From positions 1-64,000 of the forward strand of contig JARGFI010000007.1 of assembly GCA_029210745.1 (NCBI GenBank): 64,000 bases of DNA, given 5' to 3'. Positions 35,253-43,637 of the stretch are shown one piece after another (positions within the stretch are counted from its first letter, which is position 1; each line of letters opens with the position of its first letter). Origin of the DNA: Desulfuromonadales bacterium (GTDB lineage Bacteria; Desulfobacterota; Desulfuromonadia; Desulfuromonadales; JAHYIW01). A program made the position numbers and the translations under genes. The notes under the pieces are model-generated. The model had not been told where the DNA came from, made no database searches, and was given only the letters and a program-made list of their open reading frames with translations.

Positions 35253-36296
35253 TCAGGTCATCTTGATGAGCAACCGCCCCGGTTCCGCGTTCGTGACTGC
35301 GCCGATGCCCCAGCAGCCGGTCTCTCTCGCCGTCAACTCAGCACATAATGGCGCAGCTTTCTCCGGCGCAACCGCGATCAGCAAGCCGCCGGAGGTTTGC
35401 GGGTCGCTGATGATGTCGAGGATATCGGGCGCGATGCGGTCGGCATCGATCACTTTCCCCAGATAGTAATCACGATTATTGTAGCCACCCGCCGGGATCA
35501 TGCCGATCGCCGCCATCTCCCGGACCTGCGGATAGACCGGTAGCGCGGCGCCGTCAAGCGTCAGGCCGACATTGCTGGCCAGAGCAAGTTCCAGTGCGTG
35601 GCCGAGGAGGCCGAAGCCGGTGATGTCGGTGCAGGCATGAACCCCGATCGTCAGCATCGCCTCGGCGGCGGCGCGGTTGAGGGTATTCATCCCGGCAATC
35701 GCGGCACTGATGTCGGTTGCGGTGAGAATCTCCCCCTTGAGGGCAGTGGCGAGGATGCCGGTGCCGAGGGGCTTGGTGAGAATCAGCTGATCTCCCGGTT
35801 GCGCCCCGACCGTTGAAATCAGGTGCGCCGGGTTGACCAGTCCGGTCACCGCCAGCCCGTACTTCGGTTCGTCATCCTCGACCGTATGCCCACCGACGAT
35901 GGTGGCCCCGGCATCATGGCAGGCGTCCGCCCCGCCGCGCAGAATCTCGACCAGAAGCGATCGGTCGAGGCACTTGGGAAAGCCGATCAGGTTGAGTGCG
36001 GTCAAGGGACGCGCACCCATGGCGTAGAGGTCAGAAAGCGCATTGGCGGCGGCGATGCGCCCGAACAGATAAGGGTCATCGACAATCGGCGTGAAAAAAT
36101 CGACCGACTGCACCAGCGCGAGGTCGGCGGCAATACGATAGACCCCGGCATCGGCGGAGGGGATCGCGGCACTGAGGAAATTTTCATCCGGATAATTTGG
36201 TAATTGACGCAGCACCTGCGCCAACGGCTCAGGAGCCAGTTTGGCGGCTCAACCGCTGGAGCGGGACAGGCTGGTCAGCTTGATATGATCTGCCAC
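35253..36296 (-). CDS. selD: Selenide, water dikinase SelD, a selenoprotein (UGA = Sec16)
   Basis: A 347-residue enzyme making selenophosphate from selenide and ATP. The frame runs from a GTG at 36296 (AAGGAAGTCT upstream) to 35253, reading through one UGA at 36249-36251. Around it the sequence reads SSG-U-AAKLAPEPL, the catalytic GCAAK motif of the family with Sec in place of Cys. Downstream motifs HTVEDDEPKYGLAVTG and GFGLLGHALELA are normal. Ordinary translation would begin at the TTG at 36224 and lose the active site. A hairpin suitable as SECIS follows the UGA. It is the last gene after selA and selB, 33 bases from selB. Confidence 0.9.
36219..36251 (-). promoter_or_regulatory. Bacterial SECIS-like hairpin after the selD UGA
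   Basis: Minus strand: lower stem CGCCAA (36241-36246) pairs with TTGGCG (36219-36224); upper stem GGCT (36234-36237) pairs with AGCC (36226-36229) around the loop CCTG. The apical loop begins 15 bases after the UGA, close to bacterial SECIS geometry. Confidence 0.6.
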
Positions 36297-36329
36297 AGAC
36301 TTCCTTTCATAAAAGCGTCGCTTGATTTA

Positions 36330-38234
36330 TTAGTTCAACTGCCACGCCACGCGGACGTCGTCTTGGCGCAGAGTGTACTTTAATTCGTCGAAATGTTCCA
36401 GCAATGCCTGGGTCTGTTTGCGGGCGCTGCCGATCAGGTCGCGAAACTCTGCCAGGGTCAGGGTTTTATGCTGTGAAAAGTGCGCTCGCAGCTGGTTGAG
36501 CGCCTGCGCGTAGCTGTCACGATGGAGAAAGCTTTCGGCGTTGAGCCGCACCAGCTCTCCCTGGGCAAAGAGGTAGCCGAACAGATCGTCGCACCCGGCC
36601 AGCTCCAGTCCCAGGCGTTCGAGCATCTCCTGGCGATTCTTTGCCTGCATGCCGTCCTCCCGGTAAAGCTGTTCAATCCGATCGATCTGTTCCTGCTGGG
36701 CAGGCGTCGGTCGGGGCGTGAAGTCAGGGAGGGCAATAGTGCCATTGGTCTCACATAATCTTCCGGTTGCGGTCAGGTCATTGAGCAGTTGATCGAAACT
36801 CTTCGGCGCCAGCTGTCTGGGCAGTGAACTTTTCAGGGTTGCGCGGGGAATGCCAGTCAGGAGCGGTTGCCGGTGGTGAAATGCGGCGGTTACATCATGC
36901 AGGCGGCGTTGCCAGGCGCGGTGCGTGGCAACGGTCAGCCATTGTTCACCGAGCTGGACAATGTGGTCCTGAGCGGCGAGTGCCTGGAGATTTTCCTGAA
37001 TGCGCTCTTGCCCCAGACCGGCGAGCTGTTCCAGTTCCTTGAGCTTGCAGCAGGTCGCCTGCTCGATTTTCTGGAGCAGAAAGGCCTTCTCGCCAGATTC
37101 CAGCTCCTGCAGCGCGTGCATGACGTCGGCACGGAAGCGGCGATGTTTGACCGGTCGCGAGTCGAGGACTTTGCCACCGCCGATGGTTGTCATCGGTGAG
37201 TAAGAGCGGATGATGAAGTGATCTTCACGATGGGCAACCAACGGCCGGTCGAGATGAATCTGGGCGATGGCACTCTCCCCCGGTTGCAACTCATCGCGGT
37301 CAAGGAGGGCGACCAGTCCGACCACGTGGGCGGTGCCGAGATAAAAGTGCACCGGGTCGCGAAACTTTAGCCGCCGTGGCGCGTTGGCGAGCAAGGTCAG
37401 GCGGACATCGATGCGTTCGGTCTGTTCAAAAATACCGGGGGTGGCGGCGACCGCGCCGCGCTGCAAAAGGGCGCGTTCAACGCCGGTCAGATTCAGGGCG
37501 GCGCGCTGTCCGGCGCGGGCGGCAGGAATTTTTTTGCCGTGGACCTGAACTTCCCTGACGCGGGTTTCGATCCCGCGGGGCAATAATTCCAGCGTGTCGC
37601 CAACCTGAACGGTACCGGCGAGCAGCGTTCCGGTGACGACAGTGCCGAAACCGGGGACGCTGAAATGGCGGTCAATCGGCAGCCGCAACGGCCCCTCATG
37701 ATCTTTGATTGCCAGTGCCGCGGCTTCGGTTGCGATCCGAGCCTTGAGTGCAGCGATGCCGTCCCCCGTAATCGCCGAGACCCGCAGCAGTGGGGCGCCT
37801 TTCAACAAGGTGGCAGCAACCTCCTCGCGCACTTCTTCCTCGACAATATCGATCCAGTCCTCCTCGGCGAGATCACATTTGGTCAGTACGATAATGCCGC
37901 GTTCGATGTCGAGCAAGTTGAGGATCTGGAGATGTTCGCGGGTCTGCGGCATCACCCCTTCATTGACGTCGATCACCAGCAGCACCAGATCGATCCCGCC
38001 GATACCGGCGAGCATGGTGCTGATGAAACGCTCATGACCAGGGACATCGACCACCCCGGCGAGGCTGCCATCCGGCAGGCGAAAGGGGGCGAATCCGAGT
38101 TCAATCGAAATGCCGCGTTCTTTTTCTTCGCGCAGGCGGTCGGTTTCAATCCCGGTCAGGGCGCGGATCAGTTCGGTCTTGCCGTGATCAACATGCCCGG
38201 CGGTACCGATAATTAGATGATTAACAGGATTCAT
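36330..38234 (-). CDS. selB: Selenocysteine-specific elongation factor SelB
   Basis: A 634-residue GTPase that delivers Sec-tRNA(Sec) to UGA/SECIS. The GTP site is [14 protein letters not shown] (about residues 10-23), with [10 protein letters not shown] and [11 protein letters not shown]-Tu-like domains 2-3 follow, then the C-terminal winged-helix domains that bind the mRNA hairpin (from about residue 400). The start ATG overlaps the selA stop as ATGA. Length matches E. coli SelB (614). Confidence 0.95.
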
Positions 38235-39646
38235 TGCGCCGGGGACGGCAGCAATGCTGCGGCGAGAGATGTGACGAGGGCAGGTTCTTCGTCGGGGTGC
38301 AGGGTACGCAGGTGGAGCAATAAGCGCTCGTCGCGGATACAGCCGATGACCGGGGGAGCGGTGTGGCGCAGATGTTTGGCGAGGGTGTCGACCGAGCAAT
38401 CGGTCGGCGCCACGGCGACGGCGTAGCCGGGGAGTTCGGTCAGGGGCAGAGCTCCCCCACCGATGGCGGCGCTGGCGGTGATCGTATCGATTCGGGCAGT
38501 GGCGCCAAGCGCTGCGGCCAGCTTGCCGGTGAGTATTGTGGCACGCTGGTGTAATGCCTCCTCCGGCGCGGTGAGCATCCGCAACGTCGGTATCTCACGT
38601 GCGGCGCGGTCACGGTCGAGGTAAAGCATCAGCGTTGCCTCAAGCGCCGCCAGCGTCATTTTGTCGATACGCAAGGCGCGCGCCAGCGGGTGCTGGCGAA
38701 TCTTGTCGAGCGCCCATTTCTGGCCGACGATAATCCCCGCCTGCGGGCCGCCGAAGAGTTTGTCGCCACTACAGGTGACGACATCGAGTCCCGTCTTGAC
38801 GGTGTCCGCGACCGTCGGTTCAGCGGGCAATCCGTAAGCACTGAGGTCAAAGAGCAGCCCGCTCCCCAGATCTTCCATCACCGGAACTTTGGCTTCGGCG
38901 CCGAGCTTGACCAGCTGTGCGCCGCTGACCTCGGCGGTGAAGCCGACGATGCGGTAGTTGCTGGTGTGGATTTTGAGCAGCAGTCCGGTTTCGGCGTTGA
39001 GGGCGTCGCGATAATCTTGCAGATGGGTTTTGTTGGTGGTGCCGATTTCGCGCAAACGCACGCCGCTGGCGGCCATGACATCGGGAACCCGGAAGGAACC
39101 GCCGATCTCAATCAGTTCGCCGCGTGAGACCGGCGCTTCTTTCCCCTGTGCCAGTGCCGCCAGCGCCAGCAGCACGGCACCGGCGTTGTTGTTGACGACC
39201 GTCGCGGCTTCAGCCCCGGTGAGGCGACAGAGCAACGCCTCCACATGGCTGTAGCGGTGCCCACGGGAGCCGGTCGCCAGATCATATTCCAGATTCGAAT
39301 AACTGCGTGAGATCGCGGTTGCCGCGTTAAGGGCGGCTTCGCACAGTGGTGCGCGGCCGAGATTGGTATGGAGCAGGGTGCCGGTGGCGTTGATCACCGG
39401 GCGCAACGAGGGGCGCATTTTCTGTTGCGCCAGCTGTGCCGCGCGGTGGGCGACGGCGGCAGGAGAAAGGTCGAGCGTCGCTGTCGGCGCATCAAGGAGT
39501 TCGCGGCGCAGTTGCGCCACCGTTTCGCGAGCCGCCTCGGTCAGCAAGAGCGCCGGGCAGTCCTTCGCCAACTCGGTCAGCGGCGAAGTGGCGAGGAGCC
39601 GGTCGATGGCGGGAAGATCTTTTAACCGCTGCTGGGTCAGATTCAT
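38231..39646 (-). CDS. selA: L-seryl-tRNA(Sec) selenium transferase SelA
   Basis: A 471-residue PLP enzyme that converts Ser-tRNA(Sec) to Sec-tRNA(Sec). The PLP lysine is in SGDKLFGGPQAGIIVG; the family stretch PVINATGTLLHTNLGRAPL and VVNNNAGAVLLALAALA are present. I chose ATG at 39646; the only earlier in-frame start is a TTG without family similarity. A promoter lies at 39710-39738. The ribosome site is weak. Four-base overlap with selB. Confidence 0.95.
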   Translation of the reverse strand: MNLTQQRLKDLPAIDRLLATSPLTELAKDCPALLLTEAARETVAQLRRELLDAPTATLDLSPAAVAHRAAQLAQQKMRPSLRPVINATGTLLHTNLGRAPLCEAALNAATAISRSYSNLEYDLATGSRGHRYSHVEALLCRLTGAEAATVVNNNAGAVLLALAALAQGKEAPVSRGELIEIGGSFRVPDVMAASGVRLREIGTTNKTHLQDYRDALNAETGLLLKIHTSNYRIVGFTAEVSGAQLVKLGAEAKVPVMEDLGSGLLFDLSAYGLPAEPTVADTVKTGLDVVTCSGDKLFGGPQAGIIVGQKWALDKIRQHPLARALRIDKMTLAALEATLMLYLDRDRAAREIPTLRMLTAPEEALHQRATILTGKLAAALGATARIDTITASAAIGGGALPLTELPGYAVAVAPTDCSVDTLAKHLRHTAPPVIGCIRDERLLLHLRTLHPDEEPALVTSLAAALLPSPAQ

Positions 39647-39923: not shown

Positions 39924-40226
39924 TCAGCACACGTTTTTAAGCGTGAACAGGGTACCGATAATGTCGCGTGTCTGATCACAGGTGACACGATAAAACACTT
40001 CGACGCCGTCGCGGTGTCCTTCAATGATACCTTTGTTTTTAAGCAGCGCCAGGTGCTGTGAAACCGTTGCCTGAGGCAGTTCCAGACATTCCCATATTTT
40101 TTTGACGTTGCAACTTTGTGACATCAAGCCGGCCACAATTTTCAATCTTATCGGGTGACCAAGCACCTTGAGGATTTCCGCCTCGCGATCCAGATTGATC
40201 GTCTTGTCAAATTCGACTTCTGCCAT
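39924..40226 (-). CDS. ArsR-family transcriptional regulator
   Basis: A 100-residue winged-helix repressor: EILKVLGHPIRLKIVAGLMS, the recognition region LPQATVSQHLALLKNKGIIEG and the wing DGVEVFYRV. Cysteines in SQSCNVKKIWECLEL and the terminal KNVC could sense a metal(loid), thiol or polysulfide; they do not match the classic ELCVCD box exactly. The start ATG at 40226 has GAGG seven bases upstream. A TATGA/TCATA palindrome just upstream is a candidate operator for autoregulation. Confidence 0.87.
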   Translation of the reverse strand: MAEVEFDKTINLDREAEILKVLGHPIRLKIVAGLMSQSCNVKKIWECLELPQATVSQHLALLKNKGIIEGHRDGVEVFYRVTCDQTRDIIGTLFTLKNVC

Positions 40227-40242
40227 GACATACCTCAATGAT

Positions 40243-41981: not shown

Positions 41982-42222
41982 TGTTGCCCTCGACCGTAAT
42001 TTGATACGTATTGTCCGTTTTGACCACTTCACAGTGCAAACCCATGTTGATCACCGCCTGCGGAACCGTGACTGTTGCGTGGCGATTATCGGTAAGGAAG
42101 ATCAGCACAATACGTCGTTCTTTGAGCTCACTCTGGCGGAGGTTGATCTCCCGTAGTGCGGTCAGCAGTGTCGATGGGCAGACCTGCCCGCGTAAGTCGA
42201 ACTCACAGGTTGGAGTGTTCAT
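41974..42222 (-). CDS. TusA-family sulfur-carrier protein
   Basis: An 82-residue TusA/SirA-like protein, with DLRGQVCPSTLLTALREI. The active-site Cys is kept, but the usual CPxP motif reads CPST here, so the second Pro is lost. The C-terminal part continues normally. Such proteins transfer sulfur (or selenium) sulfane atoms. I chose the ATG at 42222, with AAGGGAG six bases upstream. It overlaps the 3' end of the yeeE gene by 20 bases and the kinase start by 8 bases. Confidence 0.85.
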   Translation of the reverse strand: MNTPTCEFDLRGQVCPSTLLTALREINLRQSELKERRIVLIFLTDNRHATVTVPQAVINMGLHCEVVKTDNTYQITVEGNND

Positions 42223-43348
42223 GGGCAACTCCCTTCATGGGGACAGTGGCAGTCAGGACGAAGCGCGTCAGCAGCAGCCCGCCCAGCCAGGCACCAGGCA
42301 GCAGGCCGACAAGGAAGAGCAGGCTTTGCAGCGCGAAGATCGGCAGCCCTCCCCACAGATGCCAGATATTGCAGCCGGGAGTGATGCGCGAACCGAGGGC
42401 CATGATGATCCCGCCGATAAAGGCTCCGAGCAATTGGCGTCGCGGCGGCCATGGAGTTAGCCGCCATTCGTTGAGGAGCAAGGCCGAAAACGCCGCCCCC
42501 CCGGTAATCCCGATCAGCAGCGGATATTGGATGGCGGCGATACCGTCGAACGCCGGGCCTGCTCCGCCGCTCAGATGAACCTTGCCGAGTGGCGCGACAT
42601 AATCCAGCGGCAGTGCCTGGAAAAATGCCGTAGCTTCAACATGGGCGGGCCATAATAAATATTCCACCTGGGCGGCGACCTTGGCGTAGGCGGTGGTAAT
42701 TCCTAACGGCATACCGGTCGCCATTACCGATACGATGCCGATCAGCGCCAGCAGCAACGCCGCCTGATACGGCGTCATATGTCCTGCGGGCAAGAATGTT
42801 CGTGCTGTGGAGGCGGGTGCTTTGCGGCGATAAACAATGGTGCATGTTGCTGCTGTCAGGAGAACCAGGAAAATTTCTTCTGGCAGATGGAGCGCCTGTG
42901 GCAAGGTAATAATATCCGCTCGCCATGGTTTTGTCACCACCAGGCTTTTCCACCAGGGATGAATTTCTGCGTACAGGGCGCTGCCGCAAATCAGCCCGAA
43001 CAGAGCCACGGCGGCCAGCTTGCTCCCCGCTCCAAGGCGATAAAGGGTGCCAACGACGCAACTACCGCACAAGACCATCCCGATGCCAAAGAGAATTCCG
43101 CCGATAACGTTTGTCGGTGCGGCAGCACCAAATAATGGATAAGGGGAGTCAGTGATAAAGCCGTAGCGTCGGCCCAGATAGCTGGCCAGCGCAGTAGCGG
43201 TGACCAGCAACAGCAGAGCTTGAAGCATCTTCACATGACGAAACAAAAAGAGATCACGAAATGCGCCAGTCATGCAAAAGTCAGCGCGGTGCATGACAAA
43301 TCCGGACAAAATGCCCAAAATCAGTGTGATCAAAACGACGGGCCACAT
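42203..43348 (-). CDS. YeeE/YedE-family thiosulfate/sulfur transporter
   Basis: A 381-residue polytopic membrane protein: WPVVLITLILGILSGFVMHR, DFCMTGAFRDLFLF, then GMVLCGSCVVGTLYRLGAGS, matching PF04143. E. coli YeeE takes up thiosulfate using conserved cysteines; the YedE branch is linked to selenium. I chose the ATG at 43348 (GGGGGA upstream); a longer start at 43417 adds 23 residues without a ribosome site. It is followed by a TusA-like gene with overlap, the typical YeeE-TusA pair. Confidence 0.82.
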   Translation of the reverse strand: MWPVVLITLILGILSGFVMHRADFCMTGAFRDLFLFRHVKMLQALLLLVTATALASYLGRRYGFITDSPYPLFGAAAPTNVIGGILFGIGMVLCGSCVVGTLYRLGAGSKLAAVALFGLICGSALYAEIHPWWKSLVVTKPWRADIITLPQALHLPEEIFLVLLTAATCTIVYRRKAPASTARTFLPAGHMTPYQAALLLALIGIVSVMATGMPLGITTAYAKVAAQVEYLLWPAHVEATAFFQALPLDYVAPLGKVHLSGGAGPAFDGIAAIQYPLLIGITGGAAFSALLLNEWRLTPWPPRRQLLGAFIGGIIMALGSRITPGCNIWHLWGGLPIFALQSLLFLVGLLPGAWLGGLLLTRFVLTATVPMKGVAHEHSNL

Positions 43349-43637
43349 AAGATTAATCCCCCAGCCTTCGAATGATGAACATTCTCCAGTGCTTTGTAGC
43401 TTAAATTGCGTAAACATGCAACTATTCTAACTTTGGTTGCTCTCGCCTTGCGGCAGCGGAAAGGGCTCGACATTCATTGGCGCAGCGACTAGAATCGCCC
43501 AGGATTTTCTGATCAGGGGATAGCCGTCTGTCCCGTCAAGTCATCCCCGGGCAGAGGGCAACCACGAGACAATCCGCTCTTGCTAAAGGGCGGAAGATCA
43601 ATTTTTTTCGGCAACGGTAATTGCACGAGAGGCGTCA

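Follow-up and report, generated by a model that had tools for sequence, protein, structure and literature searches.

The selD gene of this Desulfuromonadales genome, found in a 64,000-nucleotide stretch of one contig (hereafter the window), most probably encodes an ordinary selenocysteine (Sec)-type selenide, water dikinase (selenophosphate synthetase), predicted to be the last gene of a selA-selB-selD operon, to start at GTG 36296 and to have an in-frame UGA that is read as Sec (Table 1). From homology, codon conservation and RNA folding, the probability of this reading is estimated at about 0.97.

Table 1. Features of the sel operon in the window
Feature	Position	Strand	Details	Evidence
selD, selenide, water dikinase	35253..36296	-	347 residues, predicted Sec at residue 16	TIGR00476 and phmmer
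In-frame UGA, motif SSG-U-AAK	36249..36251	-	aligned with Cys of 2yye and 3u0o	same TGA in 30/30 order loci
GTG start codon of selD	36294..36296	-	sole canonical in-frame start after the SelB stops and before the UGA	
Shine-Dalgarno-like AAGGAAG	36300..36306	-		direct sequence reading
Putative bacterial SECIS-type hairpin	36203..36225	-	10 bp stem, loop GUG (36215-36213)	folding and covariation
selB, Sec-specific elongation factor	36330..38234	-	likely ATG 38234; longest ORF from TTG 38399	TIGR00475
selA, L-seryl-tRNA(Sec) selenium transferase	38231..39646	-	likely ATG 39646; longest ORF from TTG 39682	TIGR00474

Reading frame and active site of SelD

On the minus strand the frame runs from GTG 36296 through VADHIKLTSLSRSSG to the UGA (36251-36249) and continues with AAKLAPEPL; the part following the UGA, which opens with AAKLAPEPLAQVL, comprises 331 codons in total and runs to a TGA stop ending at 35253. 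Two TAA codons close selB in this frame, and GTG 36296 is the sole start codon (ATG, GTG and TTG being considered) from there to the UGA; the AAGGAAG motif is well placed, with its GGA core 5 nt from this GTG. The same GTG is present in a congener (G104), while other relatives mostly have ATG at or near this position. The preliminary description had proposed GTG 36296, preceded by AAGGAAG, as the true start, and both its coordinates and its frame were confirmed.

The read-through protein matches the selD profile TIGR00476 with 371.3 bits (cut-off 125), residues 6-313 covering profile positions 1-310 of 311. In phmmer comparisons it was aligned to the solved SelD proteins of Aquifex aeolicus (2yye, E=2e-69) and Escherichia coli (3u0o, E=2.4e-66), residue 16, encoded by the UGA, falling on the Cys of GCAAK in the former and of GCGCK in the latter, so the UGA indeed sits at the catalytic Cys position, as had been claimed. 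The family motif G-[CU]-x-x-K is present as G-U-A-A-K, and the UGA is also matched by Cys in 28 fetched homologues and by TGT in one orthologue from the order. The A. aeolicus enzyme (PDB 2yye/2zod/2zau) is the closest solved structure by sequence and has the same GxAAK motif, although it belongs to another phylum and its deposited chain carries Cys where the window gene has UGA. The E. coli enzyme (PDB 3u0o) is of the same family by sequence, with an aligned active-site position, but is of the Cys type, and the second Cys of its GCGCK is replaced by Ala in the window SelD, as it is in A. aeolicus.

The UGA might instead be a real stop, functional SelD then being made from TTG 36224 or another downstream start without the active-site residue. 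A mechanical ORF caller that treats UGA as a stop does place the start at TTG 36224 and returns a 323-aa ORF, which agrees with the earlier expectation that a normal gene call would begin there and lose the active site. The 15 codons upstream of the UGA, however, encode the conserved SelD N-terminus (LTxxSRSSG), alignable with the solved SelDs, and TTG 36224 lies inside a hairpin stem (see below) and lacks a clear ribosome site. The frame scan of the window revealed 90 frames of comparable size interrupted by a single TGA, so the selD frame alone proves nothing; it is raised above chance by homology, by conservation of the TGA and by a covarying hairpin. No second selenoprotein was singled out among these 90 frames.

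Conservation in the order and the Cys exceptions

A six-frame search for SelD in 136 genomes of the same order gave matches in 113 of them. Apart from five copies, every match that covers residue 16 contains a TGA in frame, and the TGA stood exactly at the residue-16 codon in each of the 30 order loci read out. The congener G104 (96% identical) keeps the TGA. A sequencing error or a pseudogene, that is, a misread Cys codon or a nonsense mutation, is a mere possibility in a 118-contig assembly and the least probable of the alternatives, being refuted by the comparative data: the same TGA recurs in this congener and in many other genomes, and the remaining frame is intact, with strong family scores.

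One of the five exceptions, in genome G131, is a true selD orthologue with TGT (Cys). In this genome, which is rated 100% complete, no tRNA-Sec was found at E<=1e-9 and no SelB match above the cut-off, whereas its congeners G129 and G130 keep the TGA, selC and SelB. This combination of Cys with undetected Sec machinery is as expected if the UGA means Sec. G131 retains MnmH, and this would account for the persistence of SelD there. A Cys in related genomes had been named beforehand as an observation that would speak against Sec; it occurs in a single orthologue, in a genome that appears to have lost the Sec machinery, and so supports the Sec reading instead. The genus offers a clean natural example of Sec-to-Cys exchange (Sec in G129 and G130, Cys in G131 with selC and SelB undetected), in which the exchange appears to go together with the loss of Sec decoding but not of MnmH. 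Since the UGA is kept throughout the order and gives way to Cys in a relative whose Sec machinery was not detected, termination at this codon is considered very improbable.

The other four exceptions (G109, G111, G115 and G116) are divergent Cys-type copies reading GGCSAK. The copy of G109 (L140:663-1937), the only one tested in this respect, is a fusion with an N-terminal Se_S_carrier domain (Pfam PF11823). G109 and G115 additionally have a TGA-type SelD.

A putative SECIS-type hairpin downstream of the UGA

The Sec reading of the preliminary description stands, and a hairpin that it had overlooked is added here. This structure (36225-36203) is a putative SelB-binding bacterial SECIS. Published rules for bacterial SECIS elements require a loop of 3-9 nt, a stem of 4-16 bp and a spacing of 16-37 nt, as well as a G within the first two loop positions and a minimum free energy of -7.5 kcal/mol or lower (PMC13188914). 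The hairpin, with its 3-nt GUG loop, 10 bp stem, 33 nt between the UGA and the loop and -12.5 kcal/mol when folded alone, agrees with all of them. No family matched it in an Rfam gathering scan of the window.

Covariation was assessed in 58 distinct TGA-type sequences from the order, Bacillota and other genomes, selected by an [AG][AC]K motif after the UGA, a few more distant SelDs (such as L072, L113 and L118) being excluded before folding. In this set 91.6% of cells were paired and 38 cells were changed on both sides, values that were reached by none of 500 shuffles, while slid controls paired at 26-47%; the shuffle test may be inflated by relatedness, against which the slid control and four compensatory stem positions guard in part. 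Compared with a synonymous-codon null, the hairpin region showed excess stability in 82 TGA genes (mean z -1.39, and -2.02 in the 30 order loci), whereas 28 Cys genes showed none (mean z 0.05); the window codon usage served as the null for all genomes, so these z values are rough for distant ones. The presence of the hairpin in Sec-type and not in Cys-type genes is an average trend, and some distant Sec-type genes lack a fold at precisely this position. In the Cys gene of G131 the stem has mismatches, and the 30-nt stretch compared folds at -7.8 kcal/mol there and at -13.1 kcal/mol in the window. The SECIS assignment rests on these comparative data, since the window hairpin by itself is moderately better than its synonymous null (271 of 5000 synonymous versions were as stable), a modest to weak significance for a single sequence.

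Sec pathway, predicted selenium dependence and known systems

The genes selA and selB lie directly upstream of selD; ATGA at 38234-38231 contains both the likely start of selB and the overlapping stop of selA. The SelA product scores 601 bits against TIGR00474 (cut-off 268) and SelB 378 bits against TIGR00475 (cut-off 242), with the SelB winged-helix domains present. As ARAGORN detected no tRNA anywhere in the window, selC does not neighbour the sel operon; it was identified by Rfam and ARAGORN downstream of a yedF-type gene on another contig (G000:C22:7860-7951, L002), and an orthologous locus exists in G104. The genome has selA, selB, selC and selD, as a selenoprotein producer should, and encodes MnmH. 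SelD would depend on the neighbouring selA and selB, as proposed earlier, and also on selC, which is sited elsewhere.

A Sulf_transp (YeeE/YedE-type) membrane protein (42203-43417), for which selen_YedE_FdhT was the best NCBIfam match, far below the cut-off, and an ArsR-type regulator (39924-40238) are encoded near the sel operon. They are possibly involved in selenium or sulfur uptake and its control.

A second, different tRNA-Sec is located at G000:C97:34-719 (L143), each of the two following its own yedF-type gene. Its 4.5 kb contig also carries a transposase and an AAA ATPase, and the YedF encoded there shares 87% identity with one from a genome of another family (G012), with no comparable match in the congener; the contig is probably foreign, or else recently transferred. 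In a relative, selC is found at the very end of two contigs (G047:C96:33539-33629 and G047:C101:4794-4884), which points to either a break in the assembly or the insertion of an element at selC.

The possibility that SelD is the only selenoprotein of the genome was dropped. The families covered were formate dehydrogenase, AhpC-TSA, thioredoxin and AhpD-like proteins; in the first three no in-frame TGA was found in the genome, and two AhpD-like (PF02627) genes each have a CxxU motif, its U encoded by an in-frame TGA, with a hairpin downstream (G000:C21:20756-20956 and G000:C25:43028-43276; L173, L174). Both genes and their hairpins are conserved in G104, and they are probable further selenoproteins. 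The Sec pathway thus appears to be complete and to serve other proteins besides SelD.

In insects, a SelD/SPS UGA has been described as read through without Sec (PMC4561486), and a near-cognate Trp or Cys route like that proposed for SPS1-UGA of Hymenoptera may be imagined here. Such a route is hardly to be expected, however, in a genome with selA, selB, selC and a covarying bacterial SECIS; those Hymenoptera that carry SPS1-UGA are reported to have no selenoproteins (PMC4561486).

If the UGA is read as Sec, translation would start at GTG 36296, and SelB with Sec-tRNA(Sec), bound to the hairpin, would insert Sec at the UGA instead of terminating. Sec16 would then be the catalytic nucleophile of the synthetase (GUAAK), as expected from the family. 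Selenophosphate from SelD would supply SelA for the making of Sec-tRNA(Sec), so that SelD would take part in making the residue of its own active site; very likely, selenophosphate would also feed MnmH for the selenouridine of tRNA. Sec insertion, catalysis and selenium dependence are thus predicted from family and pathway, and the dependence of SelD on its own product would follow from the known pathway. It is conceivable, though rather unlikely, that the UGA and the hairpin also act as a selenium-dependent valve, low selenium leading to termination after 15 codons and to a fall in SelD; all selenium use would then be shut down until the loop is set going again by a trace of Sec-tRNA. This circularity is known in principle, and a measured switch-like or bistable response in the order would, as far as checked, be new. 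For annotation, ORF calling with UGA as a stop yields a SelD without its active site.

The gene is already of a known kind, as the published records make clear. Zhang et al. (2006; PMC1794560) counted SelD among the selenoproteins of Geobacter, Desulfovibrio, Syntrophobacter and others, and discussed a loop that retains Sec decoding for the sake of SelD, an enzyme that in turn sustains both itself and selenouridine. According to Mariotti et al. (2015; PMC4561486), 19% of the SelD genes in their reference prokaryotes encode Sec, the position never varying, and a bacterial SECIS was detected. The SelD proteins of Geobacter sulfurreducens and G. metallireducens (PMC1794560, Table 3) differ from that of the window in the particular genome only, no functional difference having been found, and are likewise selenoproteins of Deltaproteobacteria whose members have the Sec machinery. 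Sec-type SelD is well known, with records from Deltaproteobacteria such as Geobacter going back to 2006 at the latest, and is normal in this group of bacteria.
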